22,818 nt of DNA from a virus. Location: IMG/VR virus record IMGVR_UViG_3300021335_001605, positions 1-22,818 of that record; one strand, 5' to 3'. Shown piece by piece: positions 3-22,652 of the stretch. Numbering within the stretch: position 1 is the first letter of the stretch; each line of letters begins with the position of its first letter. Made by a program: the position numbers and the translations under genes. The notes under the pieces were generated by a model. The model made no database searches, was not told the DNA's origin, and saw only the letters and a list, made by a program, of their open reading frames with translations.

Positions 3-1370
3 AAACCTGGTGAACCTTTTATGCAGGACCTTATTGATAATTATATTGAGGGCACATTAGAACCAGATAAGATTGCATGGGAACTTAGATCTATTGGCGG
101 TAGAGTACATGATTTAGCAAAAGAAGACTATTCAGTATATGAGGACCATATTGATTATCTTACTGAAACAGTACAATATGCTTGGAATAATAAAATGGAA
201 CCTTTTATTGTTGTAGAGACCACAAGAGGTTGTCCATATAAATGTGTATTCTGCGAGTGGGGCGGAGGTATTAATACCAAGATCTATAAAAAAGATATTG
301 AAATTGTAAAGCGTGATATTCTTGCTATGAAAAAAGCTGGCTATCGAGATGCTTATTTAACTGATGCAAACTTTGGTGCCTTTGAAGATAGGGACTTAGC
401 TATTTTTGAATTTGGTTGGAAGAATAATTTTAATCTTACAGATATTTCTACCATGAAGTCTAAATCATTAGATAGACGTAAAAGACTTATTGATCGTTGG
501 TTTAATATTGTAGGGCCAGGAACATCAGCACCCAAATCATTAGAACAAAAGCATGGATTAGACATGTGGGGAGAAACTGAATTTGTATCTGTAGTACCAA
601 CTGTATCAATTCAAAGTATTTCAGAAGAAGCAATGAAGTTAGCTGATAGAGTAGATCTATCAACAGAAAATAAATTAGAGTTAAGTAGGTACATTAATAA
701 AAGATGTAGTGAATATGGTTTTCCTATTCCAGCTTTAGAACTTATTCTTGCTATGCCTGGTTCTACAATTGAAGACTTTTATAATGAAATGGAAGTCATA
801 TGGAACTTTAAAGCATGGGGATCATTTAGACATGACTATATGTTCTTACCTGATTCACGACTAAACTCACAAGAATATAAAGATAAGCATCAAATCGAAA
901 CTGTAGAAGTCTATAGTGATATTGTAGATGAAGATGGTAGTGATAATTGGAATAGCTTATATAAGAATAAGAAGACATATTTCAAAACAATCAAATCTTG
1001 TTACTCTTTTACAGAAGACGAAATGATAGAGATGTGGTTTATGAATAATGCCGCAAACTACATCTTGCAGAATTTTTATCCACTTTTTATTGATTTAATT
1101 TCACCTCAGGGGTTTACAAAGCACGTATACTGTGTTATAATAAATCTATCTGATTTTAAGGAAATAGAGGATGAGATAAAAGATATATTCAATCCTAATA
1201 CTCCACCCCGTAGTATAAGACAGCTAGGCGGTAAGTTCAGGGTAGATACTATTAATGAGTACTTAGAAAGAAACAGACTATATATTATATCGGAGGTAAG
1301 TAAGAAATGTCTAATGTCTCAGACATATATACAAAAGGATACGTTAAGTTCTATGAGCCTGCCGGCTTAG
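3..1370 (+). CDS. B12-type radical SAM enzyme, 5'-partial
   Basis: The frame is open to the left edge, so the gene probably starts upstream; the first visible ATG is at 21 (449 aa from there). Counting from that Met, a radical-SAM CxxxCxxC motif lies at C71-C75-C78, followed by EWGGG and, at 115-119, DANFG. The pair CxWG then DANFG is characteristic of radical SAM proteins that also bind cobalamin; their B12-binding domain lies N-terminal to the SAM barrel, which here would be outside the window. Such enzymes use a [4Fe-4S] cluster and SAM to make a 5'-deoxyadenosyl radical, and many methylate unreactive carbons. Substrate is unknown. The last 64 nt overlap the next gene. It is the first visible gene of a tightly packed plus-strand operon with two further radical SAM genes. 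The family call is fairly sure; the chemistry and B12 dependence are inference. Confidence 0.85.
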   Translation, partial: KPGEPFMQDLIDNYIEGTLEPDKIAWELRSIGGRVHDLAKEDYSVYEDHIDYLTETVQYAWNNKMEPFIVVETTRGCPYKCVFCEWGGGINTKIYKKDIEIVKRDILAMKKAGYRDAYLTDANFGAFEDRDLAIFEFGWKNNFNLTDISTMKSKSLDRRKRLIDRWFNIVGPGTSAPKSLEQKHGLDMWGETEFVSVVPTVSIQSISEEAMKLADRVDLSTENKLELSRYINKRCSEYGFPIPALELILAMPGSTIEDFYNEMEVIWNFKAWGSFRHDYMFLPDSRLNSQEYKDKHQIETVEVYSDIVDEDGSDNWNSLYKNKKTYFKTIKSCYSFTEDEMIEMWFMNNAANYILQNFYPLFIDLISPQGFTKHVYCVIINLSDFKEIEDEIKDIFNPNTPPRSIRQLGGKFRVDTINEYLERNRLYIISEVSKKCLMSQTYIQKDTLSSMSLPA

Positions 1371-1819
1371 ATCTAATAAAGATTGACGACCATAGACTAC
1401 TTAATACTGAAGAGCGTGCAAGAGATAACGGTAAAGAAGATATTGATTATCTCTTAGCCAATAAACTTAATCTATTTGGTCAGCATCTTCATACTAACTA
1501 TATATTACCAGAATGGCCTGATGCTGTATTTAATAAATATTTGGTATGGGACGGTGTAGATAAAGATAATCAAGGCTGGCATACTGATATGTTTGAAGAT
1601 TATGATGTCTTTTTTCTATACTATTTAGATCATACCTATAAAGAATCTGGTGGTGCAATTAATTTTAAGTGGGACGGAGACTGTGTTTCAAGTTATCAAC
1701 CAATGGCAGGTGACTTATTTATGATCTCTAATCTAAGAGGATTCTGGCATAAGGCAGATGATACTAAAATAAAGCGGAGGGTCTGTTCTTTTGACTATTC
1801 TACAGGACGTACTGAATAA
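1307..1819 (+). CDS. 2OG-Fe(II) dioxygenase-like protein (paralogue 1)
   Basis: A 170-aa protein with the signature of the small 2-oxoglutarate/Fe(II) oxygenase fold: HxD at H92-T-D94, a distal histidine at H148 (in FWHKAD), and an arginine pair at R157-R158, where the family binds the 2OG carboxylate. The spacing fits a minimal double-stranded beta-helix. Such enzymes hydroxylate or oxidise proteins, nucleobases or small molecules; the substrate is not identifiable. The start is supported by GGAGG at 1292-1296, ten bases before ATG 1307. It overlaps the upstream radical SAM gene by 64 nt and the next ORF by 29 nt. It aligns by eye with the protein at 2083-2586, sharing W-x-GVD before the HxD and RRV-x-SF-x-Y at the end, so the two look like diverged duplicates. 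The metal site appears complete. Confidence 0.8.
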   Translation: MSNVSDIYTKGYVKFYEPAGLDLIKIDDHRLLNTEERARDNGKEDIDYLLANKLNLFGQHLHTNYILPEWPDAVFNKYLVWDGVDKDNQGWHTDMFEDYDVFFLYYLDHTYKESGGAINFKWDGDCVSSYQPMAGDLFMISNLRGFWHKADDTKIKRRVCSFDYSTGRTE

Positions 1820-2090
1820 AAAATCTATTCTATGTAAAGAAAGAGATCTTACAGCAGAATTGTATAATCTATGGATCACCAAGATGCATGATTTTCAAGA
1901 CGATAAGTATAAGTACGAAATGTACTTGAAGATGATTGATAACTTAGAGCCTTATGCTAATATGATTAAAGAAGAAATTCGTGTTTGTAATAGACAAATA
2001 TGCAAAATTGAAGGCGTAGAATCTATTGAAGACACGCCTTATGGAGTGGAGTGTACGTATAAGTATGGATATGAAAAACCAAATGACTAA
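1791..2090 (+). CDS. Small hypothetical protein between the two 2OG genes
   Basis: A 99-aa charged, probably helical protein that I do not recognise. The proposed start is TTG at 1791, ten bases after GGAGG at 1776-1780; no in-frame ATG lies nearby, and another TTG is at 1860. It has three cysteines, two in CNRQIC near residue 66, with no clear metal motif. It overlaps the preceding 2OG gene by 29 nt, and its stop overlaps the likely start of the following 2OG gene (ATGACTAA, 2083-2090). Its place between two oxygenase paralogues and the good Shine-Dalgarno sequence argue that it is a real gene. It could be a partner or a substrate of the neighbouring enzymes, but nothing in its sequence proves this. 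Confidence 0.6.
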   Translation: MTILQDVLNKKSILCKERDLTAELYNLWITKMHDFQDDKYKYEMYLKMIDNLEPYANMIKEEIRVCNRQICKIEGVESIEDTPYGVECTYKYGYEKPND

Positions 2091-2586
2091 CGAACAAACT
2101 TTTTTTATTGATGGATACTGGCATGATACACTACCAGAAGAAATCGATATTAGTGGGTTTGATAAATTTGATTTTAAGGATTGTACACAGCCAGAAGAAT
2201 TATGGCTAGATCCTGAGGCTCAAGATGATTTAGATAATATTCATAAATGGTTAGCTGATAACTATATTTCTAAGATCTTTGATGATTTTGAAATGAAGCA
2301 GTGCGCTATGTGGTCAGGTGTAGATGAAGGTTCTCGTAATTGGCATAATGATTTTGAAGATGGTGACTCTTTTAATAGTAATATATTAATTTATTTAGAT
2401 GATAACACTAAACAAAATGGTAATAATATTCAAGTAAAAGTAGGTGATTATCATTTTACATTATATCCTAAACGTAGAGATTTTGTATGGTTGAATCAGA
2501 AAAAATGTTTTCAACATCGAGCTCAGCACCTTTCTGGAACTCGTAGAGTTTTATCATTTGAGTACTTAGTCCCGGCACTATACTAA
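2083..2586 (+). CDS. 2OG-Fe(II) dioxygenase-like protein (paralogue 2)
   Basis: With the start at ATG 2083 the protein has 167 aa, close to its 170-aa paralogue upstream. It carries HxD at H88-N-D90, a distal histidine at H145 (in FQHRAQH) and R154-R155 before a final beta strand, the full set for a 2OG/Fe(II) oxygenase. The frame is open further upstream, with possible starts TTG 2026, ATG 2041, ATG 2065 and ATG 2071. I prefer 2083 because the overlap with the previous stop (ATGACTAA) is short and because the conserved region begins just after it; GGAG at 2048-2051 could instead favour ATG 2065. The stop codon shares one base with the next small ORF (TAATG, 2584-2588). Substrate is unknown. 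The two paralogues may act on related substrates or form a heterodimer. Confidence 0.78.
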   Translation: MTNEQTFFIDGYWHDTLPEEIDISGFDKFDFKDCTQPEELWLDPEAQDDLDNIHKWLADNYISKIFDDFEMKQCAMWSGVDEGSRNWHNDFEDGDSFNSNILIYLDDNTKQNGNNIQVKVGDYHFTLYPKRRDFVWLNQKKCFQHRAQHLSGTRRVLSFEYLVPALY

Positions 2587-2699
2587 TGGATGAAGTATTA
2601 CTTTGGCAGTATAGACGTAGTCTTATTAAGTATATTTGTATCAACAATTATTCTCCTAGACATGCTGCTCGTATACTAAATGGAATATCATGGATTTAA
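2586..2699 (+). CDS. 37-aa ORF translationally coupled to the SPASM radical SAM gene
   Basis: This short reading frame fills the only gap in the operon. Its ATG (2586-2588) shares a base with the preceding stop in TAATG, and its TAA (2697-2699) lies ten bases inside the next gene, whose ATG is at 2690. The peptide has 37 residues, begins MDEVLLWQYRRSLIKY, is basic and aromatic, and has one cysteine (C18). I do not recognise it. The position between a 2OG oxygenase and a SPASM radical SAM protein is where a precursor peptide for a modifying enzyme may lie. It could equally be a coupling leader that carries ribosomes to the radical SAM gene, or chance. The interlocked start and stop support translation; no function is claimed. 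Confidence 0.45.
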   Translation: MDEVLLWQYRRSLIKYICINNYSPRHAARILNGISWI

Positions 2700-3724
2700 T
2701 AATTAAGCCAACTGAGTTATGCAATTTCAAATGTACCTTTTGCTCATCAACTAAACTTGTAGACGATAAGGCGGCTAAGCTTGACCTTATGAAGATCTAT
2801 CAATTTCTTGACAGGTTTCCAGAGACTAATACAATAATTGTAAATGGTGGTGATCCTTTAATGATGGATCCTCAATACTATAGAGAAATTATTAAGTATT
2901 GTGATGATAATGATTTACCTGCTAATATATCTCTTACCACAAATCTTTGGCCGTTCTATAAAAATCCAAGCAGATGGTTAGATATTTTTCAAAATCCTAG
3001 AGTTGGTATTGCTACTTCGTTTCAATATGGAAGTGGTAGATTAAAAGGTGACTATTCTGTATTTACTGAAGAAGATTTTTGGAAGTGTTCTGATGCAGTA
3101 CTCGAACACTGTGGGTATAGACCTTCATTCATTGCTGTAATTACCGAAGAGAATGAAGACTCTGTAATACAAACGGTTGAATTAGCTAAAAAAATGGGTG
3201 TTGTTTGTAAAGTAAACTATGCCATGGCCAGTGGTGAACAAGACAAACCATATATGTTATCTAAAATATATGCACAATATGTAAAGATCTGGCAGGCTGG
3301 ACTAGCTGAGTGGGAACATAATACACAACAAATGATGGGTAAGATACGAGGTGAGGCTGCAGTATGTCCATTGACTCGTACTTGTGATTCTCATATACGA
3401 ACTATACAGCCAGAAGGTGACTACTATTCATGTGGTGCATTTGGTGACGATAAAGAAAAAGCTATTGACTTTGATAAAGAGATGAAAGGCGAATTCTTCA
3501 CACCTCTTGCAAACTCGCCAGAACTTAATAACTTAAAACATGCTTGTTGGACGTGTCCTATGTTTGATATATGTAATGGTTGTAAGAAAACTATCAAAGA
3601 TCTTAAACAGCATAATATGGTAGAAGAACACTGTTACAATATGAAGCTTATAGCACCTGCAATCTTGGCAGCCAATGGAGTTGACAGGGAAGTAACACCT
3701 TATGTCAATGAGAATATATTATGA
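2690..3724 (+). CDS. Radical SAM protein with SPASM domain
   Basis: A 344-aa protein. The radical SAM cluster motif is C11-N-F-K-C15-T-F-C18, and GGDP at 53-56 matches the SAM-binding glycine motif. The C-terminal region has the cysteine pattern of a SPASM domain, which holds auxiliary [4Fe-4S] clusters: C232-x10-G243-x4-C248, then C286-x2-C289-x5-C295-x2-C298 and C315, with C226 just before. SPASM enzymes include sulfatase maturases and many enzymes that modify ribosomally made peptides, though some act on small molecules. The ATG at 2690 overlaps the end of the 37-aa ORF, and the stop overlaps the next start (ATGA, 3721-3724). The N-terminus resembles the next gene (K/N-PT then CNFKC), so the two may be diverged duplicates. 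The family is clear; the substrate is unknown. Confidence 0.9.
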   Translation: MDLIIKPTELCNFKCTFCSSTKLVDDKAAKLDLMKIYQFLDRFPETNTIIVNGGDPLMMDPQYYREIIKYCDDNDLPANISLTTNLWPFYKNPSRWLDIFQNPRVGIATSFQYGSGRLKGDYSVFTEEDFWKCSDAVLEHCGYRPSFIAVITEENEDSVIQTVELAKKMGVVCKVNYAMASGEQDKPYMLSKIYAQYVKIWQAGLAEWEHNTQQMMGKIRGEAAVCPLTRTCDSHIRTIQPEGDYYSCGAFGDDKEKAIDFDKEMKGEFFTPLANSPELNNLKHACWTCPMFDICNGCKKTIKDLKQHNMVEEHCYNMKLIAPAILAANGVDREVTPYVNENIL

Positions 3725-4647
3725 ATGTATCAATCAATCCAACATACTTCTGTAACTTTAAGTGTAACTTCTGTTATCTGACTCCTGAACAATTAAGAGA
3801 TCAGAAAAAAATAGAACCAAAACAATTAGACAAATTACTAAAAGATATACCAGAACCAATAGATCATATTGACTTATATGGTGGAGAAATCGGTGCACTT
3901 AGACGAGATTACTATGATGAAATAAAAGCAGTAATACGTAAACACTATAACGGTAAAATTAATATCAACACAAATTTTTCTATGCTAGATAGTAGATTTT
4001 TTGAGCATGATATTACTTTATCTGTATCTTATGATTTTGAGGCCAGAGAAAAACATGAATTAGTATTTCAAAACATGATGATGAGTCCTAAACCGATAGC
4101 CTTGCTGATCTTGGCATCACCAAGGGTTATCACCATGGACGTGGACGAGATGATTCAGAACCTCAATCTGCTCAAATCTGTTACTTCTGTTGAAATTAAG
4201 CCGTATTCTATCAATCAGGCTAATACATTAGATCTTTCTCACAAGGAGTATGAAAATTTTGTTATAAAGTGGTTAGAGTCTCCAATACAAAAGAACTTTG
4301 AATTTATCAATCTTTACAATATTGAAGATAGTTATAACAAACATTATAATGCTTTTAGTGATGACCATGTATATATTACACCCAATGGCAAGTATGGTGT
4401 ACTTGATTTTGATAAAGATGATAAAGAATACTTTTTAGAATTAGCTAGCTGGTCTAACTATCAACAATGGGCTTATCAAGAAAAAGTTACGTTATCAGAT
4501 ATCTGTAATAATTGTAAGTATGTAGGTCACTGTCTTACAGAACATTATAGATATGTTAAAGATTTAGATAATAGCTGTAATGGCTATATAAATTTACTAG
4601 AGTGGTATGATGCAAGAGTGGAAGATAAAACAAAAGTTATATCATAA
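3721..4647 (+). CDS. Radical SAM protein with reduced SPASM/twitch domain
   Basis: A 308-aa protein with C11-N-F-K-C15-N-F-C18 and a glycine motif GGEI at 54-57, so the SAM-radical core is complete. In the C-terminus only C262-x2-C265-x5-C271 and C286 are present. The segment matching the earlier GxxxxC of the SPASM neighbour (YITPNGKYGVLDFD, near 218-231) has no cysteine. This suggests one auxiliary cluster rather than two, as in twitch-type domains. It is coupled to the upstream radical SAM gene by a four-base ATGA overlap and overlaps the next ORF by 41 nt. A stretch around 4081-4170 is richer in G+C than its surroundings. It may act with the SPASM paralogue on the same substrate; that is inference. 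Confidence 0.88.
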   Translation: MNVSINPTYFCNFKCNFCYLTPEQLRDQKKIEPKQLDKLLKDIPEPIDHIDLYGGEIGALRRDYYDEIKAVIRKHYNGKININTNFSMLDSRFFEHDITLSVSYDFEAREKHELVFQNMMMSPKPIALLILASPRVITMDVDEMIQNLNLLKSVTSVEIKPYSINQANTLDLSHKEYENFVIKWLESPIQKNFEFINLYNIEDSYNKHYNAFSDDHVYITPNGKYGVLDFDKDDKEYFLELASWSNYQQWAYQEKVTLSDICNNCKYVGHCLTEHYRYVKDLDNSCNGYINLLEWYDARVEDKTKVIS

Positions 4648-5047
4648 ACTAAATAAAGATTATGAAGATGACTTAAATAATGTTGATATCGAAATCACAA
4701 AAGATATTACTTTCCATGCTATCAGATATTTTAGAGAAAAAGATATTGGCTGGATCTATCCATCTAAATCTTATATGGTAGCAATATGCTACGCTTTTTG
4801 GATAATGGAAGACTATAATGAAAATTTTTATGATGTTCTAAATGATCCAGAACTTCTTCCAATGGATCCTTATTTTGTTCCATACAGAGAAGATAGTGTA
4901 ACATACAATAATATAATTAGTGTAGTTTGCGCAAACAATAAAGGTAAACTTACAACAGAAGGAATGGTACAAGATGTCCGAAGATATTACGAAGCTGAAA
5001 TTAAGAACGGGGACACACTATCTATATCCAACGTTACTGAGGTTTGA
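4607..5047 (+). CDS. Hypothetical protein, 146 aa
   Basis: I cannot assign a family. The protein is acidic and aromatic, with a mid-region FHAIRYFREKDIGWIYPSKSY followed by a hydrophobic helix (MVAICYAFWIME), too short and interrupted to call a membrane segment. A proline- and aspartate-rich turn region follows (LNDPELLPMDPYFVPY). It begins with two adjacent ATGs at 4607 and 4610, overlaps the preceding radical SAM gene by 41 nt and the following oxygenase gene by 74 nt. No cysteine motif or catalytic signature is visible. The compact, in-register location inside the operon and the protein-like composition argue that it is real. It may be an adaptor, a substrate or an unrelated phage protein. 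Confidence 0.65.
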   Translation: MMQEWKIKQKLYHKLNKDYEDDLNNVDIEITKDITFHAIRYFREKDIGWIYPSKSYMVAICYAFWIMEDYNENFYDVLNDPELLPMDPYFVPYREDSVTYNNIISVVCANNKGKLTTEGMVQDVRRYYEAEIKNGDTLSISNVTEV

Positions 5048-5504
5048 ACACATACCTATTGATGACGAATGGGTTATGGATGGACTACAAAAGAAAGTAA
5101 CGCAATCCTTAATTGATGATGCTTACTTTTATTTTGATGACTTTATTCAAGATTGGACTGGTCATAATATACATGACTGGAAAGATTATGAAATAAAATC
5201 TTGGATTAACCGTTATGAGAATATTGGTATGGAAACACACACTCATTCTGGTGCTCATGCTTCAATGGTAGTATATTTAGAATCTGATCCCGAGTCAGGT
5301 GGTGAAATAGTTTTTTATGATCCTAGGCCACATGTAGCTCGTGGATATGATATGAAATTTAGAAAAACTACTGACCCAACTTATCATGCACCAAAGACTG
5401 GAGATTTATTAATCTTTCCTAGTTACCTATATCACTCTGTCAGACCTGCAACTCACACGAGAGTATCTTGTGCATTAGATCTATATTTGTATAATGATGA
5501 TTAA
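4974..5504 (+). CDS. 2OG-Fe(II) oxygenase-like protein of the TIGR02466/2OG-FeII_Oxy_5 type
   Basis: A 176-aa protein with the features of the phage-common family: LYPT near residues 17-20, an asparagine/tyrosine strand, then H89-T-H91, a YLxSDPxSGGEIVFYDPR block at about 101-118, GDLLIFPSYLYH ending in H154, and R163. H89, H154 and R163 fit iron and 2OG binding; the usual HxD position reads HxH here. GAAGGA at 4958-4963 supports ATG 4974. It overlaps the previous ORF by 74 nt and is the last gene of the operon. Its TAA (5502-5504) overlaps the stop of the convergent fibre gene. Related proteins are frequent in marine T4-like phages and their targets are mostly unknown. It belongs to a different subfamily from the two oxygenase paralogues upstream. 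Confidence 0.85.
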   Translation: MSEDITKLKLRTGTHYLYPTLLRFEHIPIDDEWVMDGLQKKVTQSLIDDAYFYFDDFIQDWTGHNIHDWKDYEIKSWINRYENIGMETHTHSGAHASMVVYLESDPESGGEIVFYDPRPHVARGYDMKFRKTTDPTYHAPKTGDLLIFPSYLYHSVRPATHTRVSCALDLYLYNDD

Positions 5505-6694
5505 AGAATAACGGCTTCTATTTTGCCAGTAGGATTTTTCTTAGTGGCTTTAAAGTCTTCAAGGGCTACTGCAAATCCATGAGGTGACTCATTATCTACT
5601 ACACCATGACCTTCAGGTGCACCCACTAAACGATCACCCTTTTTAACAGTACCACCGACCTTTACAGGAACACGGCCTTTCAAGGCAACCGGAATACCAT
5701 TTTCTAGTTGATTATTCATTAAGTATGCAGGATAAGCAGAGATAACTCCAAGTACTGAATGATTGTGTTCACCATCGGTAGCTGTTACTTCGAATTCACC
5801 ACCTACTCTTACTACTGTACCAGCTTCGTATGCATAATCAGAAAGATAAAGCTCAGCCAAGTCAGCGTAGTTTGCAGTCGTTGCAGTACCACTAAAGGTA
5901 GTTGCATGAACAGTACTCCATTTAAGAGAACTTTCTCCTAATGTATAGCTATTATTTGCATTGGGTACAATTGCAGTATTAACTCTAGATCCAAATGTAA
6001 CTATATCAGATGCAGTTGAATTACCAAGTACAACATTACCATTGGCAGTAAAGGTACTTGCTACCGTAAGAGTATCACCCATATTGAAAGCATTATTAAA
6101 TTGTGCTGCACCAGATACTGTTAATCCTTGGTTAAGAGTAGTTACTGCACCATTTACTGTAAGTCCATTTCCAACTGTAGCAGATCCACTAATAGTAGTG
6201 GTATCAGAAGTTTGATTACCTAGTGTACTACTTCCATCTACAGTTAAAGTACCAGATACGTTAATTAGTCCATTACAATCAATATCAGCATTTGCGATTA
6301 AAAGACCTTGAGAAGTCAGAGTACCACCAACAGTAGTATTACCCGTTACTCCAAGTGTAGTTCCCACGCTCGTAGCTCCTACAATACTTAAATCAGCAGC
6401 AACTGTAGCATTACCTGTTTGATTGAGGGTTAATACATCTTGTGCACCGGCAGTAAGTTTAAGAGTAGCTGCTTCACCAGCCACGATAACTGTTCCATCT
6501 CCAATTTGATCTGCAATATTAATTTCGTTATCAAATGTAGAGTTACTTTTAATTTCATTAAGAGCACCAATAACATCAGTTGCGGTATATCTACTTGTTA
6601 GTCCAGAATCATCTCCAACTAAAGTTGCAAGACCATTGCTTTTGACTCTCCATTGTTCAAAGGTATCTGAAGTTGCTACATTTATGACAGCCAT
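5501..6694 (-). CDS. Tail fibre or spike protein
   Basis: A 397-aa protein with three parts. The first about 60 residues form a head (VINVATSDTFEQWRVKSNG) of the type found at the start of marine-phage fibre proteins. Residues about 60-240 are short repeats of small, beta-forming residues (LTV-x-G, T-x-VGNG-x-LTV), which predict a trimeric beta-structured shaft. From about 274 comes a C-terminal domain (NYADLAELY, YEAGTVV, PAYLMN, GRVPVKV, KKGDRLVG) common at the ends of phage fibres and resembling self-cleaving or chaperone-like fibre tips; whether it cleaves is unknown. It likely binds the host surface. The start overlaps the stop of the 67-aa gene at 6694. The stop overlaps that of the convergent oxygenase gene. 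Confidence 0.8.
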   Translation of the reverse strand: MAVINVATSDTFEQWRVKSNGLATLVGDDSGLTSRYTATDVIGALNEIKSNSTFDNEINIADQIGDGTVIVAGEAATLKLTAGAQDVLTLNQTGNATVAADLSIVGATSVGTTLGVTGNTTVGGTLTSQGLLIANADIDCNGLINVSGTLTVDGSSTLGNQTSDTTTISGSATVGNGLTVNGAVTTLNQGLTVSGAAQFNNAFNMGDTLTVASTFTANGNVVLGNSTASDIVTFGSRVNTAIVPNANNSYTLGESSLKWSTVHATTFSGTATTANYADLAELYLSDYAYEAGTVVRVGGEFEVTATDGEHNHSVLGVISAYPAYLMNNQLENGIPVALKGRVPVKVGGTVKKGDRLVGAPEGHGVVDNESPHGFAVALEDFKATKKNPTGKIEAVIL

Positions 6695-6897
6695 TAGTTA
6701 AGCCTCTTAATAATTTGGTTCATTAAATCTTTTAACTCCTGAACATCATTTTTAATGCTTTGAAGTTCTTCTTCTTTTTTCTCTGCTGCTAACTTAGCAT
6801 TTAATGCTTTTTGATAAGCAGTGTTATCTGTATTTATAACAGCCCCTGAGTTCATATCTCTTTGGAGGCCTGGTCTATTTTGTATATTAACCTTCAT
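6694..6897 (-). CDS. Small coiled-coil virion-associated protein
   Basis: A 67-aa protein. The first half carries NRPGLQRDMNSGAVINTDN; the second half (about 34-66) is a charged helix with heptad-like leucines and isoleucines (EELQSIKNDVQELKDLMNQIIKRLN), which predicts a coiled coil. It lies between the large DUF4815 protein and the fibre and overlaps each by a base or so, so the three are probably translated together. A short coiled coil there could trimerise or attach the fibre. That is inference from position; I know of no defined function. A TATAAATA match falls inside the gene at 6831-6838. Confidence 0.7.
   Translation of the reverse strand: MKVNIQNRPGLQRDMNSGAVINTDNTAYQKALNAKLAAEKKEEELQSIKNDVQELKDLMNQIIKRLN
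6831..6838 (-). promoter_or_regulatory. Possible internal late promoter before the fibre gene
   Basis: A TATAAATA on the minus strand inside the 67-aa gene, 136 nt upstream of the fibre start. The motif is right but the location is coding and the spacing unlike the others. A few matches per strand are expected by chance in DNA this AT-rich, so this is weak. Confidence 0.3.
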
Positions 6898-9800
6898 TAT
6901 GTACCTAACGCTATAACTCTAAAGTCTTTAATACGTGGAACTGCGGTAGATGCCTGAGCTCTAAATACTACCTTGATCGCTACAGTTTGGAAAGGTGCAG
7001 CCGAAAGATCTACAGTATATTCATAATCATTAAAGAGTGTAGGATCATCAACATTTGGAACAACTGTATCGATATTTGCTAGATTCCAGTTTAAGGTTTC
7101 GAAAGCAATATCTGAACCAGCTTCTTGTGTCTTATAATATACATCGATAAACGATCCATTAGGTCTATTACCGGCAAAGATAACTCTTAGTCCAATTGAA
7201 GATTGAGCAAGGGTTACTTTACGTGTGATATACTTAGAAAGAGCTGATCCACCAGTCGGTGCTGTTTCAGCCAAGTAATTAAGTACAGGATTCTGGCCTG
7301 TATTAGATCCACCAAATACTTGCGGGTTATCAATACGGTTTGAAATAGTAAATACTGACATACGATCTAGATCAAGCATTGGACTTAAGAATGGATCGCT
7401 TGAAGTCATTGTAGCTTTAAGATCCAATGATTTACTTCCACCAGCAACATAGTTTGTTTCATTAATTTGTGAAGCAACTAGCCTTGGTGTTGTTGGATAA
7501 AAGTTTTCATTAGCCACGATCTCAGTAAATGATGCATCTTTTTGATATGTTGGCTCTGATCCAGCCAAAGATTTAGATGAGGTAGTTTTTACAGCGTATG
7601 ATGTAAAGGTACCTGGCAAATTCATTTCGTTAATTTGTGGGTACATAATATCAATGTGCTTATTCTCAGTAGCTGTTACTGCTGTACCACCACCATTAGT
7701 AGTTGAAGTAGCATTAGAAGCTACAGTAATACTATACTGATCCTGTTCAACATTTGAAATTACGTGAGTAGCATTAAACTGTGATATTGCAATACCACCA
7801 ATCGTTGAAGCAACTCCTGTAATTGTTACACTTGAACCTGTAGGCATACCGTGATTCCTATGTTTTACAGTGCAAGTATTACTTAGGTTTGTTGTATAAA
7901 TTGGGTTAGCTTCTAAGTTACGAACTGGAATACTACCATTAGCAAAATTAACTACACCACTTGCAGTTGTATCAAAATTTGCTCTTTTAACTCTAAACTT
8001 AAGATCTTTTGTCTGATCTGCTGACCAAGTTGAACCATTTTGCGATTTAAAGAATACACCAGCATATGGTTGTGAGGAAATACGCCTTGTAGTTCCAATT
8101 GAGTTTTGGCCAATTTCAGCAGTGTAAGCTTCATACTGATTTGAGTTAGCAAGAAGACAAATTGCATATTCTTGGTTTTGTCTTAGATACACTGGAGATG
8201 GGAAAGCAAAATTAGTAGCAGCCGATGCATCCGTAGAAGTTACTACGTCTACAGCATCTTTAACAACTTCACCAAATGCTAGAATTTCGTTTGAAGGATA
8301 ACCATTTACCACTCCACGAATTTGAAGAGTAACTGGAATTGCTAAATCTTTTTCCTTAAAGAATATATCCATACTAGTAACGAACGCACCTGATGGATTA
8401 TCAATTAAGAATGTTTGAGCTAATGGATCAACCCATCCAACTGTACGTGTAGAAGCACGGCCAATTAAGGCTAATTGAACATCATTAACAGATTCTTGTA
8501 CAAGAGTTGGAGATCTTAGAGATACTTCTTGTGTACCTTCAACTAAACCACGAGCAGAATAAGTTGCACGGCCAGATGTAGTAATCAAATTTAGATTACC
8601 GTTTGGATCATCCATAAGTTTGAATAATCTTTCACCAGTTCTAAACCTGATATTAGCTGTATTTGGAATATAGAATTCACCATAAGCTGTACCAGTAGCA
8701 TCTGTAATAATAGCATTATTGCCTGCTGAAATATCTCCGGCAGTAATATCGGGGTGACGAATAGCAGATGCATTTGGCTCAGGATCTACTGAAGTAACAG
8801 AGTTACGTACAAATTGAGCTGCAGTAATATCGGTAGTAAAGTCATTAACGTTAATATCTTCAAAGTAAGGATACAAACGAGTATTTGGCTTAAAGCGCGA
8901 TGCTTTAAACTTAACTCTTCGCGCCCGAATAAATGGTACCATACGTACATCCACCACTCTTTCACCAAGTGATGTTTGAATGGTATCAGGCGCGACCGAA
9001 GTACGGACACCCGTACGTGTTTGCTGTGCAATTTGGGCCTGGAGCGTATTTCGGAAGACACGACGACCTGATCTTTGGTTACCCGACGTATCTCCTGCGA
9101 ATATCTCTCGTCCGGTCCACTGAGTTTCCCACTCATTCCAGACCGTGCCAAGCACTCCGTCTTCGTTCGCAAGTGTATTAACCACATCGAACAGACCTTC
9201 ATTATCGATAATAAGATCTGGTCTAACATCTGTTTCTTTCCAATCATCCTCTGCAGGAGTAAGATCAATTTGACCAATAAATTGGAAGATGTCATATGGG
9301 TTTACATTTTCAGCACCAGAAGCAAATGGTTGATCGATGATCGTTGCTTCAGTATAAGGAAGAGAAATTACATCCCCAGTTTGCTGAAATGAACTTGATG
9401 AGGCAGTGTCTTGATTAATTAACTTGACATTACCTTCATAGAATTGTGGTCTTGCTTCACCCTTATCAGCATCAATCGAAACATGATAATCAGGATCTTG
9501 TGGGTTACCAATATTGTGACCATAGAATGGATCTACAATAAAGCCAGACTTAAATCTATCTACGTTAGAAGAATTGAGTACTTGTGCATCTGCAGTTTCT
9601 TTTTCGAGAAGAGACAGAGATGTATAGTATTCCAGGTTATTGATTCTACTTTCTAGGCGACCAATGTCACGCATAGTGAATCGTTTATTGTCTTTCATAA
9701 TTGGTGTAACATCATTTGTGCTAAATGTGTATGGACCAATATCTAAGTCATAGATAACCATACCATCGTCTGGATTAGCAGGACGAGCTGGTGTAGCGGC

Positions 9801-12179
9801 TGAAACACCTTTTAGATGCTTAAACACGCCTTTGTTATCTACATAAATTTTATCTTTTCGTGGTAGGAAATAACGGAAGTCTAAGAACATATTAGATGCA
9901 ATCTTACCAATTTCAGTAAGTGCAGCACCTGATTGATTAGTACCACCCGCATTAGTAAAGGATGTTCCATCATCACGTACACGTGGACGGAAGTCTAAAA
10001 CATCTCTTAATTCGTATGTTGTACTGCTTGAAGCATATGATGGAATATCAGCATATCCAACTTGGCCGGTATAAGAATCTACTGAGAAATAATCTCCAGC
10101 GCCATGAGTAAAGTAATCAAATACCACATGGATTCGACCGACAGGACCAGGCTGGCCAGGCTTTAGTTTAATTCGACCAATGCCATAAAAGTTATCTCTT
10201 TGTCCATTATCTAACTCATACCTACTTGTAATATTCAAATCAGCTGTAGTAGCATTTGTACTTGGAGCAAGTGAGTCATGGACAGAAACTAGCCTGTAAA
10301 TATCTGCTTTATTTAATTCATCAAAGCTGTTAACTGTTGTATTTGGTCCAGTAATATTTATTGTAGCATTTTGTACAAGTGTTTTCTGTTTTTCTGAGGC
10401 TAATGATTTAGTAAGCGTTGTAATTACCGTAATACCTTCGGTTGTTAAACCAGCACCAGTAAGGTCAATATTAAGGTTAACACCATTTGCCGCTAAACGA
10501 GCAGCTCCACCAGTACCATCGGTAAGGCTCATATCGTATACCACACCAGTAGTTGTATTAGCTACTTGGTAATCAGCTCCACTATATGGGCTTTGGAATG
10601 TTTCATCCGACGCAATTGTGATAGTAGCCAATCCACCTGAAAGAGAAGTTGTATACCTACGACGTACTGTTACAATAGTATCTACCGCATTAAGTGCAGA
10701 CCTAATTGTTTCAACTTGACTATATGGAAGTGGGAAAAGCAAATCATTGTTATTAATATCGTAAAGTACCGCAAGTCCACCTGTTTTTACTGTGGTAGAA
10801 AGAAACTCACCAGCGGTAGATCCTTGATTATTAATTTGGTTTACTGCAGAAAATAAGTTTGACCCAGACATCTGAATATCAAAGAGATATAACTTATAGA
10901 CTGCACCAGAAGTACCTGGTGTTCCAGAGTGTAATTCATATGCCCTTGCTCGAGCAGTACCAATTACAGTATTGGCAGAACTACGAAGATCTAGCTTTTC
11001 GTAATCTGTAATATTAGGTAGGTTTGTTGTAGTATTAACAAGAGTATAGTTACCCATTTCAAAAGAAATAACATTATTCTCTAATTGAGCAGTGTCCCGT
11101 GCCTTATCTACACTAAGATATGTTGTGGCAATTGTATCAATTTCATAACCACGAACATAAGCTTTTCCAGGCTCTAAACCGATGGCCAACTTAGAATCAT
11201 CACCACCAGCTGCACTTGAATAGATACCTCTATTGTTACCGCTCTGTAAATGCTCTCTTACATCAATACCAAAAGGACGAACTGTATAGTCACCAGACTC
11301 ATCATAAGTCCTACGAGCAAATGTATCCTCAAGGATAGAGTATTCAGTTGATCTAATTTGTTTAGAAATAACACCATTCTCTACACGGATAAGTTCAATG
11401 AAGTTATCATCGTCTGTTGCGGTCAAACCTTTTTTCGTTAATGTAAGTAAAATCTTATAACGATTGGCACCTGGTGCCGCAAAGTTTGGAGAACCAGTAG
11501 CATTATCTGTAAGGTTTGCATCTTGTGTTGAAGATACTAAGCTTTCAACTACTGTAAGTCCGATTCTATAAGAAGGTGTATTTGTATATTTGTCAAGTAC
11601 AAGAGTTTGACTTAAAACATAAGCAAAGGTTCCATTGACATAATAGATACCAGGCTGAATAGATACGGCTGAGCCAAATCCTACACTGCCTGATACGTTG
11701 TTAATTTGTGCTGAACGAGGAGTTGATCCATTTGATAATACAACTTCGTTTTGAGCAAATTCTTTTGTAGTTTTATCTGTACCAGATGAAGTATATTTGA
11801 CAAACAGTGTAAGAGGATCTGAACCAGATACTGCAACTGTGCCAACTACTTTAGCTACTACTCCAGTAGTTTGACCAGTAATAAGAGTACCTTCAAATTC
11901 GGTACGGTATAATTCTACGTCTGCACTACTAAATGTTGAAGCAACTTTAATGAATCCATACTCTTTGTCTAATGCAGATTGGCCAGGGATAACCATGGCT
12001 CCATCTTTAAAAGTATGATTAGCAAATTGACTAATCTGATTTTGCAGAGTAGACTGTAATTGAGTTAACTCTCTTGCTTGAAGAGCCACTGAAGGCCGAA
12101 ACAAAATGCGATAGTATTGTTGCTTCGCATTTGTTTCGAAGTCATCATAGTAGGGGGATACATTAAAATCAATTGTCAT
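6897..12179 (-). CDS. Large baseplate/tail structural protein, DUF4815 N-terminus
   Basis: A 1760-aa protein. The N-terminus (residues about 5-66: SPYYDDF, YRILFRPSVALQARELTQLQ, HTFKDGAMV) matches the DUF4815 signature seen in large structural proteins of marine T4-like phages. Beta-rich modules follow. Around residues 1000-1110 is an arginine-rich region ending RARRVKFKASRFKPNTRLYPYF, which I believe is conserved in these phages. Residues about 1430-1500 hold an HGM-x-TGSSVTITG module typical of fibres and adhesins. The C-terminus (about 1640-1760) looks like a jelly-roll domain. It is probably a peripheral baseplate or fibre-attachment protein. No signal or catalytic motif was seen. AAGG lies just before ATG 12179; no promoter is visible, so it is probably co-transcribed with gp8. 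DNA at 8941-9180 is unusually G+C rich. Confidence 0.82.
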   Translation of the reverse strand: MTIDFNVSPYYDDFETNAKQQYYRILFRPSVALQARELTQLQSTLQNQISQFANHTFKDGAMVIPGQSALDKEYGFIKVASTFSSADVELYRTEFEGTLITGQTTGVVAKVVGTVAVSGSDPLTLFVKYTSSGTDKTTKEFAQNEVVLSNGSTPRSAQINNVSGSVGFGSAVSIQPGIYYVNGTFAYVLSQTLVLDKYTNTPSYRIGLTVVESLVSSTQDANLTDNATGSPNFAAPGANRYKILLTLTKKGLTATDDDNFIELIRVENGVISKQIRSTEYSILEDTFARRTYDESGDYTVRPFGIDVREHLQSGNNRGIYSSAAGGDDSKLAIGLEPGKAYVRGYEIDTIATTYLSVDKARDTAQLENNVISFEMGNYTLVNTTTNLPNITDYEKLDLRSSANTVIGTARARAYELHSGTPGTSGAVYKLYLFDIQMSGSNLFSAVNQINNQGSTAGEFLSTTVKTGGLAVLYDINNNDLLFPLPYSQVETIRSALNAVDTIVTVRRRYTTSLSGGLATITIASDETFQSPYSGADYQVANTTTGVVYDMSLTDGTGGAARLAANGVNLNIDLTGAGLTTEGITVITTLTKSLASEKQKTLVQNATINITGPNTTVNSFDELNKADIYRLVSVHDSLAPSTNATTADLNITSRYELDNGQRDNFYGIGRIKLKPGQPGPVGRIHVVFDYFTHGAGDYFSVDSYTGQVGYADIPSYASSSTTYELRDVLDFRPRVRDDGTSFTNAGGTNQSGAALTEIGKIASNMFLDFRYFLPRKDKIYVDNKGVFKHLKGVSAATPARPANPDDGMVIYDLDIGPYTFSTNDVTPIMKDNKRFTMRDIGRLESRINNLEYYTSLSLLEKETADAQVLNSSNVDRFKSGFIVDPFYGHNIGNPQDPDYHVSIDADKGEARPQFYEGNVKLINQDTASSSSFQQTGDVISLPYTEATIIDQPFASGAENVNPYDIFQFIGQIDLTPAEDDWKETDVRPDLIIDNEGLFDVVNTLANEDGVLGTVWNEWETQWTGREIFAGDTSGNQRSGRRVFRNTLQAQIAQQTRTGVRTSVAPDTIQTSLGERVVDVRMVPFIRARRVKFKASRFKPNTRLYPYFEDINVNDFTTDITAAQFVRNSVTSVDPEPNASAIRHPDITAGDISAGNNAIITDATGTAYGEFYIPNTANIRFRTGERLFKLMDDPNGNLNLITTSGRATYSARGLVEGTQEVSLRSPTLVQESVNDVQLALIGRASTRTVGWVDPLAQTFLIDNPSGAFVTSMDIFFKEKDLAIPVTLQIRGVVNGYPSNEILAFGEVVKDAVDVVTSTDASAATNFAFPSPVYLRQNQEYAICLLANSNQYEAYTAEIGQNSIGTTRRISSQPYAGVFFKSQNGSTWSADQTKDLKFRVKRANFDTTASGVVNFANGSIPVRNLEANPIYTTNLSNTCTVKHRNHGMPTGSSVTITGVASTIGGIAISQFNATHVISNVEQDQYSITVASNATSTTNGGGTAVTATENKHIDIMYPQINEMNLPGTFTSYAVKTTSSKSLAGSEPTYQKDASFTEIVANENFYPTTPRLVASQINETNYVAGGSKSLDLKATMTSSDPFLSPMLDLDRMSVFTISNRIDNPQVFGGSNTGQNPVLNYLAETAPTGGSALSKYITRKVTLAQSSIGLRVIFAGNRPNGSFIDVYYKTQEAGSDIAFETLNWNLANIDTVVPNVDDPTLFNDYEYTVDLSAAPFQTVAIKVVFRAQASTAVPRIKDFRVIALGT

Positions 12180-12191
12180 TATTTTTTTACC

Positions 12192-13496
12192 TTAAAACTC
12201 TAGTACAAGTTTAATATCTTCAATTTGTGAATTAGCTCGAGCAACCGCACTTCTGTTTTCGATATAAAGAACTTCCCCAGAAAACTTTTCAACTTCAGGG
12301 TCACCAAGAGAAGATATGTTAGCCGTTACCGCTCCACTATTTGAGATAGCTTCTGAAGCTTGAAATGTTCCATAACCGGTACTGGCATCTTGATGATATC
12401 GAATAGTACTTGTTCCTACGTCTATAGAAGTTATATAGGCCTGAGCTCCAGAGGTTCCGCCAGTAATAATTTCATCTGGTGCAAAAGCTCCACCTGCAAG
12501 AGATCCATATACTAGATTTCGAGTAGCTTGTAACGTAGAGGCTGTGGCATTTACAGTTGTTCCAAAATTAAATGGGTTACGAATAAGACCTAATTGACGG
12601 AAATCGTTGTCAATTGGAAAGTCTCCAGATCCTTCGGCTGAATCCAAGTTGATGTTACACATAATAAAGAAAGCACCAAGTTCATCAGCCATATTTGCGC
12701 CATGACCACCAGGAGGCGAAATAATAGCTCTTGCTGTAGCTCCTGTACCACCACCACCTGTGATAGTAACTAAGGCTTCATCATAACCAGTTCCGATATT
12801 ACTCATTGAAATGTCTGTAACTACTCCACCCACAACCGTAGCTGCAGCTGTAGCACTTTGCCCATTACCGGTAATTGTTACTGTCGGTGTTGAAGTATAA
12901 CCTGATCCTCCGCTTGTAACTACAACCCTGTGGATTGAACCATTTTGAGCATTTGTTTGAACATCATACTGGAGTGATCCATCATTTGATGTAATAACAT
13001 TTACTGGAATAAAAGAGTTTGTTAAGAACTTTGTGGCCTGTGTACCTGAAAGAGTAGCCATAAATTTCCAAACATAACCATCAGACTCTACAGCGTTAGC
13101 AGCATTTGTGGTTTGCCCAGTTGGTTTAACAACCGAAGCACCTGTACCAGCTTGCAAACATTTATAAACATTCAGTTCGTCTGTGATTACATAATACTGT
13201 GATGTACTTAACGTAGATAACTGATCATCATAGGCTACATAAGTAGTACCCGAAAGCCAGTTATAACGAGTGATACAATGGGAAACATCAGATTGAGCTA
13301 CTTTTTTAAGTGCAATCATATTCTGATGTACATTATTTTTGTCGAATACTGTATCAACCGGAGTTGCGATTGCAGTATCTGAGCTAGGCCAGTTATGTGA
13401 GCGACCGATGTATAGATAAGTACTATCAGTACCTACGTCATCGCGAAATGCACCCGCGTTATTGACCCTAATTTGTTTTGATACGATGGCCGTCAT
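12192..13496 (-). CDS. 8: Baseplate wedge protein gp8
   Basis: The ends match T4 gp8: an early IGRSHNWPSS (T4 FGRSEPWSS), DGYVWKFM at 139-146, and near the C-terminus FRQLGLIRNPF at 299-309 and SGEVLYIENR at 406-415, then a hydrophobic final strand. gp8 is a dimeric wedge protein that binds gp10, gp7 and gp6 in T4. At 434 aa it is about 100 residues longer than T4 gp8 (334). The extra sequence is in two places: glycine-rich GSGYTSTPTVTITG-type repeats at 191-260 and a GE-x-I-x-G-x-TSGA-x-A module at about 336-396. A TATAAATA late promoter lies 34 nt upstream, with GAGGTAAGG as ribosome binding site. Confidence 0.88.
   Translation of the reverse strand: MTAIVSKQIRVNNAGAFRDDVGTDSTYLYIGRSHNWPSSDTAIATPVDTVFDKNNVHQNMIALKKVAQSDVSHCITRYNWLSGTTYVAYDDQLSTLSTSQYYVITDELNVYKCLQAGTGASVVKPTGQTTNAANAVESDGYVWKFMATLSGTQATKFLTNSFIPVNVITSNDGSLQYDVQTNAQNGSIHRVVVTSGGSGYTSTPTVTITGNGQSATAAATVVGGVVTDISMSNIGTGYDEALVTITGGGGTGATARAIISPPGGHGANMADELGAFFIMCNINLDSAEGSGDFPIDNDFRQLGLIRNPFNFGTTVNATASTLQATRNLVYGSLAGGAFAPDEIITGGTSGAQAYITSIDVGTSTIRYHQDASTGYGTFQASEAISNSGAVTANISSLGDPEVEKFSGEVLYIENRSAVARANSQIEDIKLVLEF
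12720..12926 (-). repeat. Glycine-rich beta repeats inside gp8
   Basis: Two units of the GSGY-x-x-x-x-TVTITG-x-G-x-x-ATA pattern at residues about 191-260, separated by a GGVV turn. This type of repeat is widespread in fibres and adhesins and is absent from T4 gp8. Confidence 0.7.
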
Positions 13497-13530
13497 TTTA
13501 TAACCTTACCTCATTTAATTTAGTTAATAC

Positions 13531-13538
13531 TATTTATA
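13531..13538 (-). promoter_or_regulatory. T4-type late promoter for gp8
   Basis: A perfect TATAAATA on the minus strand in the 46-nt gap before gp8, 34 nt upstream of its ATG. The spacing equals that of the other two intergenic boxes within three bases. Confidence 0.83.
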
Positions 13539-13542
13539 CACG

Positions 13543-14445
13543 TTATGTGATGTTAATCACCGATTCAAACGATATATTTAATTTAGTACCTGCTGCAGCA
13601 TCAGCAATTGTAAAATTTGCATAATTACTCATAGGGCCGATATCTGGCAGGAATTTATACTTTTCAACATGCAAAAAGTTTGGACCTATTGCATATTGAT
13701 TAATTGGCTGAAGAACGAACGTAAGTTCGATATCTAGGGCAACACCACCAACCACTGGTATTGCAACATCTACGACTACTGGATCAGCAAAGACCGGAAT
13801 ACCAGTATCTAGTGTACTAAAGTCTGCTACACCTTTTGCTTTTACTGGACTACCAGCTACTCCAACGGCTTCAGAGAAGATAGTTACCTCACCGAAGAAA
13901 GCAAATCCTGCTGGATGCAATAGTTTCTTAACTACATCTTTCCAGTTATCAATTGTTTGTCCAGTCTTAATAACATAAGAAAATGACTGGTAATATCTTG
14001 AGTCTTGAATAAACTTTTTGACAGATAATTTACCATCATCGTTTTTCCAACGTCCGTTTGTTGGATCCCATTTAGCATCCGAAGGCTTAAGAATATCTAC
14101 TCTTGGAAAAAAGAGTTCAATGTCATCATTAAAGATAAGTCTGAACAAAGCTTTAAACGAAGGTTCAGCACCTTTTGAAAGGTATATATCTGTAATGTTC
14201 TTATATAGTTTGGATTTATCTGCAACAACAGTTTCTGGAATTGGAACAGCCAATTCTCTTTGTAACATCTCTAGAAATTCAGTACCAACTGTATCTAAAT
14301 TACGATGCGCAGGTAAAGACTTTAAGAATGCACCTGGCTGGTCTGGCTGATCTAAAAAATCATAGTACGCTTCCATGAACTTCATAAGCTCAGGCTTTTC
14401 AAGCTGAATATGCTCTGGTACTATGGTTGTTACTTTATGTGACAT
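13543..14445 (-). CDS. Baseplate-associated virion protein, unnamed family
   Basis: A 300-aa protein. The N-terminal 135 residues carry a pattern I recognise from phage baseplate proteins: PEHIQLEKPELMKFMEAYYDFLD, RNLDTVGTEFLEML, IYLSKGAEPSFKALFRLIF, then a DAKW turn. A beta-rich, proline/valine C-terminus (about 200-300) follows. No confident T4 gene number can be given. It lies between gp6 and gp8, and its ATG shares one base with the gp6 stop (TAATG, 14443-14447), so it is translationally coupled to gp6. This argues for a wedge or wedge-fibre connecting role. It is followed by a short gap holding the gp8 promoter. Confidence 0.72.
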   Translation of the reverse strand: MSHKVTTIVPEHIQLEKPELMKFMEAYYDFLDQPDQPGAFLKSLPAHRNLDTVGTEFLEMLQRELAVPIPETVVADKSKLYKNITDIYLSKGAEPSFKALFRLIFNDDIELFFPRVDILKPSDAKWDPTNGRWKNDDGKLSVKKFIQDSRYYQSFSYVIKTGQTIDNWKDVVKKLLHPAGFAFFGEVTIFSEAVGVAGSPVKAKGVADFSTLDTGIPVFADPVVVDVAIPVVGGVALDIELTFVLQPINQYAIGPNFLHVEKYKFLPDIGPMSNYANFTIADAAAGTKLNISFESVINIT

Positions 14446-16310: not shown

Positions 16311-16319
16311 TATAACCCC

Positions 16320-16757
16320 TTACCTAATTCTTTCTAAATAAAATTCTGTGGATCCAGTTTGAAGCGATGTAATCATTTGAAACTCTATAGAAACTCTAAA
16401 CCTGTTATAGTCGTCTTCACTAGTGACATCAATATTTAATAATCTAACTCTTGGCTCAAAATTTAGAACTGTTTCTTCAATAGCTTCTTTTAGATCAAAT
16501 TCAGTAAAGTAATCAGCAGGCTCAAATAATAAAGCTCTAATGTTAGATCCTAGTGTGGGTTGAAATGGCCTTTCACCTCTACTAGTCAAAATAAGATTTT
16601 TTATAGACTGTTTTACTGCATCCAGATCTTTTAAGATAGTTATATCTTTTGTGTTTGGATGTTTAAGAAAAGCCAAATCAAAATCAGAGTAAACCACTGA
16701 TCTACTAGTAATAATAGACTTTCCTGATGCATCTGATTTTGTTTGTGTTCTTGCCAT
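16320..16757 (-). CDS. 25: Baseplate wedge protein gp25
   Basis: A 145-aa protein of the GPW/gp25 family: YSDFDLAF at 23-30, AVKQSIKNLILTSRGERPF at 48-66, QPTLGSNIRALLFEP and then an acidic helix and a final beta hairpin. T4 gp25 is 132 aa, so length fits. gp25 starts sheath assembly and joins gp6 and gp53 at the core of each wedge. It follows the 71-aa gene by four bases and precedes gp6 by nine, forming one unit behind the promoter at 17014-17021. Confidence 0.94.
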   Translation of the reverse strand: MARTQTKSDASGKSIITSRSVVYSDFDLAFLKHPNTKDITILKDLDAVKQSIKNLILTSRGERPFQPTLGSNIRALLFEPADYFTEFDLKEAIEETVLNFEPRVRLLNIDVTSEDDYNRFRVSIEFQMITSLQTGSTEFYLERIR

Positions 16758-16761
16758 TTAA

Positions 16762-16977
16762 TTACTCAATATACTTTTCTACCATTTCTAGAATATCATC
16801 GTATTTTGCGACTTCTTCTAGTTCTTTTTCTACACTTTCCATAATATCTGAATGTTCACCAATACCAACTGGATTGGCTAAATAAATTTCTACATTAGCG
16901 ATATGTTTATCAATATGACCTTTTGCATGTGTCTTTAAAGATAAAATCATCATTTCTCTAATTTGTTCGCTTGTCAT
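16762..16977 (-). CDS. Small acidic protein upstream of gp25
   Basis: A 71-aa, mostly helical protein with a central HAKGHIDKHIANVEIYLANP segment and GIGEH, then an acidic helix. I recall similar small proteins beside gp25 in marine T4-like phages but no known function. It is the first gene behind a TATAAATA promoter (36 nt upstream), with AAAGG before the ATG. Its position suggests a baseplate assembly factor or minor virion protein; this is inference. Confidence 0.72.
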   Translation of the reverse strand: MTSEQIREMMILSLKTHAKGHIDKHIANVEIYLANPVGIGEHSDIMESVEKELEEVAKYDDILEMVEKYIE

Positions 16978-17013
16978 TTCAAAGCCTTTCTACATGATTA
17001 ATTAATACAGTTA

Positions 17014-17021
17014 TATTTATA
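17014..17021 (-). promoter_or_regulatory. T4-type late promoter for 71-aa/gp25/gp6 unit
   Basis: A perfect TATAAATA on the minus strand in the 48-nt gap between the 373-aa gene and the 71-aa gene, 36 nt upstream of the latter's ATG. It is preceded by TTG, as in the gp8 promoter where GTG stands there. Confidence 0.82.
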
Positions 17022-17025
17022 CAAG

Positions 17026-18147: not shown

Positions 18148-18148
18148 A

Positions 18149-18445: not shown

Positions 18446-18454
18446 GTTTACCTC

Positions 18455-21687: not shown

Positions 21688-21699
21688 ATTATTTTACTC

Positions 21700-22611: not shown

Positions 22612-22644
22612 TAAACCTAACCTATAACCATATTGCCATACGAT

Positions 22645-22652
22645 TATTTATA
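22645..22652 (-). promoter_or_regulatory. T4-type late promoter for gp48 operon
   Basis: A perfect TATAAATA on the minus strand, 33 nt upstream of the gp48 start. It matches the T4 late promoter consensus used by the gp55/gp33/gp45 system. Its last base overlaps the A of the gp4 ATG on the other strand. Confidence 0.8.

Follow-up and report, generated by a model that had tools for sequence, protein, structure and literature searches.

A conserved cluster of radical SAM and oxygenase genes beside phage fibre genes accompanies a protein with a near-invariant Cys-His-x-Ser tail

Why should a single phage contig carry three radical S-adenosylmethionine (radical SAM) enzymes and three 2-oxoglutarate (2OG)-Fe(II) oxygenases in one array, and on what would they act? 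IMG/VR record IMGVR_UViG_3300021335_001605 is a whole virus contig of 22,818 bases, and the stretch analysed here (the window) covers all of it. At positions 3-5504 it holds nine plus-strand genes, designated A to I, each overlapping the next by 1-74 bp; they comprise three radical SAM genes (A, F and G), three 2OG-Fe(II) oxygenase genes (B, D and I) and three small unknowns (C, E and H), and T4-type baseplate genes adjoin. A preliminary description, made from the DNA alone, had read the array in the same way, and our family searches agreed with it. It had further proposed that the genes form a complete tailoring pathway acting on a protein, a nucleobase or a sugar. Co-occurrence of the genes strongly supported a single pathway, and the comparative evidence points to the C-terminus of a protein as the target. 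The pathway in the window is not complete, as the contig opens within gene A and covers just the 3' half of the system.

The upstream half was found in relatives. In locus L081, a relative whose main genes are 75-91% identical to those of the window at the protein level, the operon order upstream is a cupin gene (139 residues), K, PREC, L, M, N and a complete A. K and N are radical SAM enzymes with a SPASM domain, L has 223 residues and M 391, and PREC is a protein of 189 residues with the C-terminal end CHASCHSSCHGSRGRR. What had been called complete thus lacks a cupin, two more SPASM radical SAM enzymes, two orphans (L and M) and a probable substrate (PREC), all of which the relatives carry upstream. 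The B12-binding domain expected ahead of the truncated gene A was present in the complete A of L081 (PF02310). Complete relatives also add a fibre gene ahead of the cupin, which is JmjC-like.

PREC (phrog_35144) is a protein of 120-300 residues with the C-terminal end CHxSCHxSCHxSRGRR. A DNA pattern for CHxxCHxxCHxxRxRR-stop, for which we estimated less than one chance occurrence in 257 billion bases, matched at least 120 viral stretches and 19 genome contigs. At the positions left free by the pattern, 183 distinct proteins carried Ser at the 4th (165), 8th (143) and 12th (163) residue of the tail and Gly at the 14th (163). Alignment of 68 PREC sequences gave a mean column identity of 24%, and every invariant residue other than Met1 lay in the tail. 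The N-terminal domain diverges: 115 of 169 proteins belonged to one leader family and 41 to a second, with the remainder in small groups. Members of the second family are usually tandem pairs of 124-140 residue proteins. In L118, L123, L125, L148, L190 and similar loci, such pairs bear the same tail and are followed by a different, divergent radical SAM family; K-F-G can be several kb distant at loci of this leader family. Two tandem tailed proteins with unlike leaders were also seen on a single contig (L093/L094, 3217-4730). Pattern matches in Frankia, Pseudoalteromonas and Bordetella had no PREC-like open reading frame and were rejected.

AlphaFold2 modelling from the 68 sequences predicted that PREC is a folded domain with a disordered tail; the domain reached a predicted local distance difference test score (pLDDT) of 86 and a predicted template modelling score of 0.80, and confidence fell over the tail. 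A fold search returned no PDB relative at E<=0.001, and among viral models it found gp170 of Agrobacterium phage Atu_ph07. Three BFVD models from one phage, Myoviridae sp. ctijX18 (A0A8S5USJ7, A0A8S5USJ8 and A0A8S5USV2; 504-660 residues), also contain the PREC fold (E 5e-5 to 2e-4), and these larger proteins may hint at the position of PREC in the virion.

The window proteins were compared by tblastn with 99 viral loci identified with F or A. The order A-B-C-(D)-F-G-H-I was repeated in dozens of contigs, and F-G-H was nearly invariant. Flanking sequence sufficed at 53 F loci: G, H and an N homologue were present in 53/53 and K in 52/53, and the same loci carried the cupin (46), L (46), I (43), M (37) and A (29); the presence counts for K and N may include cross-hits because K, N, F and G are paralogues, and those for H, L, the cupin and the tail are free of this effect. 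A plus-strand protein with the PREC tail lay upstream of A in 19/19 A loci. Where at least 7 kb was available upstream of F, PREC stood 2.8-7.3 kb before F in 56 of 64 loci. It was elsewhere on the contig in six of the remaining eight, and the last two are on short contigs (22.7 and 35.9 kb), which brings the F contigs that carry a tailed protein somewhere to 62/64. Loci found by the tail alone, with a real open reading frame, had a cluster radical SAM gene within 8 kb on the same strand in 124 of 128 cases. PREC directly follows K in most marine loci and in all four jumbo-phage loci examined. Five of five relatives of gene B in viral contigs sit on cluster-bearing contigs. These results indicate, at the level of sequence, that the gene set and its order are conserved and are not a chance accumulation.

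Cultured phages gave the same picture. K, F and N each matched the identical seven of 50,697 phage records, namely Burkholderia phages SURPRISE13, FLC6 and FLC8, Agrobacterium phage Atu_ph07 (two records), Sinorhizobium phage Phosso and Pseudomonas phage DT01. This distribution, together with the shared order in the marine contigs, bore out the co-occurrence that the preliminary description had set against single, independent homologues. Across the four genomes examined, fibre-region gene(s) come first, followed by the cupin, K, PREC, L and/or M, N, F and G; H follows G in three of them, and G is shortened in Atu_ph07. Each of these four genomes, scanned whole, contained exactly one tail motif, which lay inside the cluster. 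Six annotated radical SAM genes fall within the cluster unit of DT01. Two adjacent dihydrofolate reductase genes lie inside the cluster of SURPRISE13 (L102:13855-15032) and are annotated in FLC6 too. Neither A nor the marine PREC matched any cultured phage by tblastn; the cultured jumbo phages have no A similar enough for detection, and their PREC has diverged beyond the reach of this search. Jumbo-phage PREC was recognised by position and motif, and that of Atu_ph07 also by its fold.

The radical SAM enzymes were examined by motif and family. Gene A (3-1370; PF04055) encodes a B12-type enzyme resembling KedN5 and C-methyltransferases, and its N-terminal B12-binding domain was lost at the contig start; for the complete L081 copy the KedN5 C-methyltransferase family was nearest (1.1e-25), below the curated cut-off. 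Gene F (2690-3724; PF04055) is a SPASM radical SAM enzyme and a core gene of the cluster that was found again in every related phage, and its paralogue G (3721-4647; Pfam Radical_SAM) is of the twitch type. The CxxxCxxC motif was found in K (50/51), N (55/55), A (24/24), F (27/27) and G (36/36). K, N and F have the seven to eight conserved C-terminal cysteines of SPASM proteins, with radical SAM and SPASM cysteines in 26-27/27 of the F sequences, and G has the twitch set only (4 conserved C-terminal cysteines in 36/36), in keeping with the division first drawn between F and G. K, N, F and G share phrog_1802, and gene duplication is therefore the probable route by which the pathway grew. The named families nearest to K are mostly peptide maturases, including PapB, all far below cut-offs. 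K scored 35.8 bits (E 5e-9) with PapB model NF047865, well short of its cut-off of 340 bits; K with HxsB (27.4 bits, cut-off 370) and F with HxsC (28.1 bits, cut-off 267.9) also fell short. A role in anti-phage defence or as a viperin was considered and rejected: a relative of G scored 31 bits against the viperin cut-off of 180, and PADLOC gave only weak pVip matches. In L254, a virus-like contig binned as a Bacteroidetes genome, a flavoenzyme of the tryptophan-halogenase family (L254:3-1073; PF04820, 3e-53) directly adjoins G.

Two of the window's oxygenases are small and paralogous, as first described. Gene B (1307-1819) matched PF13640 (2OG-FeII_Oxy_3) weakly and has an HTD...H...R motif. 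Gene D (2083-2586) had no Pfam oxygenase match and was assigned through phrog_19592, which it has in common with B, and through an HND...H...R motif of the HxD...H...R type. The third, gene I (4974-5504; PF13759, 8.1e-15; phrog_81), belongs to another subfamily, 2OG-FeII_Oxy_5. The cupin found in relatives has invariant H82, D84, K97 and H122 in 8 sequences (HxD...K...H), which gives it the iron triad and basic 2OG residue of a putative JmjC-type Fe(II)/2OG enzyme, and its profile matched the histidyl hydroxylases MINA53 (4e-7) and NO66 (2e-4).

The cluster is tied to fibre genes. Immediately behind the array lies neighbour J (5501-6694, minus strand), a fibre-like gene with a C-terminal domain of Peptidase_G2 type (an intramolecular chaperone; PF11962, weak), and the minus strand from 5501 to 22818 encodes T4-type tail and baseplate proteins, including gp5, a gp6-like wedge protein, gp8 and gp25. 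In 61 of 92 loci with at least 4 kb of sequence upstream, a J-type C-terminal domain was encoded 4-2645 bp ahead of PREC, most often where a gene immediately before the cupin would lie. The virion-protein cluster of Atu_ph07 was defined by proteomics as coding sequences 170-215 (PMC6102473), and PREC of this phage, gp170 (YP_009611835.1), is exactly the first gene of that cluster. The numbering of the report agrees with the Atu_ph07 record (gp181 baseplate, gp198 portal, gp204 prohead). We infer that gp170 was detected in Atu_ph07 virions, because it opens the cluster.

Cellular copies were also found. Bdellovibrio-like chromosomes (L246-L249) carry the cluster, and in two of them it adjoins a pilin-like fibre gene. 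The pilin-like protein of L246, the one protein tested, has a Peptidase_S74 chaperone domain, and these copies might serve prey attachment. They were probably acquired horizontally, because only 5 of 129 genomes of the class carry the tail. Three further loci in cellular bins, L106 (Euryarchaeota), L111 (Rickettsiales) and L113 (Bacteroidetes), all metagenome-assembled genomes, look like stray phage contigs; that of L113 carries a phage sheath gene.

Our preferred explanation, to which we give a probability of about 0.62, is that the cluster is a system resembling those for ribosomally synthesised and post-translationally modified peptides (RiPPs), which modifies the tail of PREC, a fibre-associated virion protein, and leaves the tail attached. 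From the comparisons we infer three things: modification of the tail by the enzymes, the presence of PREC in the virion and the function of the tail. K, N, F, G, the B12-dependent A, the JmjC-like cupin and several 2OG-Fe(II) oxygenases would act in turn on the tail. K could form Cys-centred cross-links, given the PapB-like spacing of one Cys every four residues; A could add C-methyl groups, and hydroxylation of His, Arg or other residues could fall to the cupin and the 2OG enzymes. PREC, finished and with its tail retained, would be assembled into the virion at the fibres, and its tail would there come into contact with the host envelope. Removal of the modified tail is improbable, because no protease or exporter (peptidase or transporter) family was found among the Pfam and NCBIfam matches of the window and L081 cluster genes.

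Several observations weigh against this explanation. The window contig lacks PREC, whose part in the system of this virus is deduced from relatives and above all L081, and the virion location derives from the cluster boundary in Atu_ph07. The two Bdellovibrio-like copies described above adjoin a pilin-like gene and not a phage tail. A conserved C-terminus with a variable N-terminus reverses the arrangement of most RiPP families, so the tail may serve as a recognition tag and the residues that are modified may lie elsewhere. No leader-binding domain of the RiPP recognition element type was identified, and L, M, H and C are orphans without an informative relative.

Whether the enzymes might act on something other than PREC was weighed. 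They could modify a surface glycan, a fibre protein, a DNA base or a small molecule, with PREC left unmodified and serving the same assembly as a scaffold or as a partner that binds metal. The CHx2CHx2CH motif could indeed bind metal unmodified, the Burkholderia phages add their two dihydrofolate reductases to the cluster, and single I-type oxygenases are common in marine phages according to the preliminary description, relatives of I being found outside the cluster too. We nevertheless judge this unlikely: the distribution of A, B, F, G and H follows that of PREC and not that of genes for sugars or DNA modification; K directly adjoins PREC and has peptide-maturase relatives; and neither glycosyltransferases nor nucleotide-modifying families turned up in the marine cluster genes scanned, the Burkholderia reductases being the one exception. 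Among the targets that had been left open, the protein C-terminus is favoured.

It is doubtful that the tail is instead removed by a protease of the host or the phage and released during infection as a free antibacterial, signalling or lysis-related peptide. The mixture of radical SAM and 2OG enzymes and the precursor beside a SPASM maturase are RiPP-like, and L254 also has the halogenase-type enzyme beside G, but the genes scanned hold no protease or exporter, the N-terminal part of PREC is predicted to be a confidently folded domain and not a short leader, PREC of Atu_ph07 lies at the edge of the virion-protein cluster, and the location beside fibre genes is constant. It is highly improbable that a flexible tail-fibre region gathered these genes by chance, as auxiliary metabolic genes; radical SAM cassettes do come and go in the host-recognition cluster of pelagimyophages (PMC7029224), but the identical set and order recur in dozens of distant contigs, jumbo phages and Bdellovibrio-like chromosomes, and K, F and N share an identical seven-record distribution.

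Within the explanation of a modified and retained tail, metal binding by the finished tail is attractive but unproven. We offer as a tentative idea, improbable in its full form, that cross-linking and hydroxylation turn the Cys-His-x-Ser repeats into a metal-binding group carried by the tail fibre, for example through beta-hydroxyhistidine made by the MINA53/NO66-like cupin, and that this chelator, made on the ribosome, tailored by enzymes and displayed on the virion, docks onto outer-membrane receptors by imitating a metallophore. The Trojan horse idea has been discussed in the literature, as has the iron in HxH motifs of phage fibres (PMC11705849). If true, the 'Ferrojan/Trojan horse' idea of iron in tails would gain a dedicated biosynthetic pathway, shared with predatory Bdellovibrio-like bacteria.

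The system was compared with known ones. RiPP precursors are generally encoded beside their maturases, as PREC is directly after K; a leader protease and/or exporter is also general in such clusters, and the window and L081 genes include neither. The usual conserved leader and variable core are likewise not seen, the tail being near-invariant and the N-terminal part variable. Proteusins of the polytheonamide type have a large folded leader, and a B12-dependent radical SAM methyltransferase-like enzyme, other radical SAM enzymes and an Fe(II) oxygenase act on one substrate. The PREC system is alike in its large folded leader and enzyme mix; its leader was unrelated to known proteusin leaders in our searches, its core has 16 residues, and no leader peptidase was seen. 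The His-Xaa-Ser system (HxsA/B/C/D) has a repeated His-x-Ser in its substrate and paired radical SAM enzymes, whereas the phage maturases match HxsB and HxsC only weakly and the phage repeat is Cys-His-x-Ser at the extreme C-terminus. The cupin resembles the JmjC ribosomal oxygenases MINA53, NO66 and YcfD in its HxD...K...H motif and profile matches, but it is much smaller (about 134-205 residues), phage-encoded and without ribosomal context. The ranthipeptide pair PapA/PapB shares a SPASM radical SAM enzyme beside a ribosomal substrate with Cys every four residues, and PapB forms Cys-X3-Asp thioethers (PMC9413430). The phage system differs in having no acidic acceptor residue, a conserved C-terminus on a folded domain, several radical SAM enzymes plus oxygenases, and a phage location. 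We class it among RiPP-like modification systems and place it in no named RiPP family.

The small genes of the array were less informative. Gene C (1791-2090), an orphan of about 99 residues with a TTG start, is kept behind A and B in relatives at 40-88% identity. Gene E (2586-2699) is a 37-residue open reading frame with 95-97% identity in L001 and L003 and no match at other loci, and is kept in close relatives only. Gene H (4607-5047; phrog_20737), an orphan of about 140 residues always paired with G, has a confident predicted fold (AlphaFold2 pLDDT 87.8) with no PDB match at E<=0.001. Profile searches of L, M and H against the PDB gave nothing significant, and Pfam gave only scattered chance matches for L members.

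Many radical SAM genes per phage have been remarked on before, in Aeromonas phage 332-Vera, in a TARA T4-like genome with 12 and in the pelagimyophage cassettes, and two of these three reports place them inside tail or host-recognition regions; in the portions available, the reports count genes and name no substrate and no conserved system (PMC12390700, PMC5332604, PMC7029224). The open-access literature yielded nothing relevant on the tail motif or on phage-encoded RiPPs, and no account of the system was found. If our explanation is true, a broad and varied set of phages (marine T4-like, phiKZ-like and other jumbo phages) and some predatory bacteria would share an undescribed machine that rebuilds a protein end, in which up to five or more radical enzymes, joined by several oxygenases, act on one fibre-associated protein. 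This would account for the puzzling radical SAM gene clusters in phage tail regions. The cultured carriers Atu_ph07, SURPRISE13, FLC6/FLC8, Phosso and DT01 make the system directly testable, and its RiPP-like product would be part of the virion and not a secreted molecule, a new kind of virus part.

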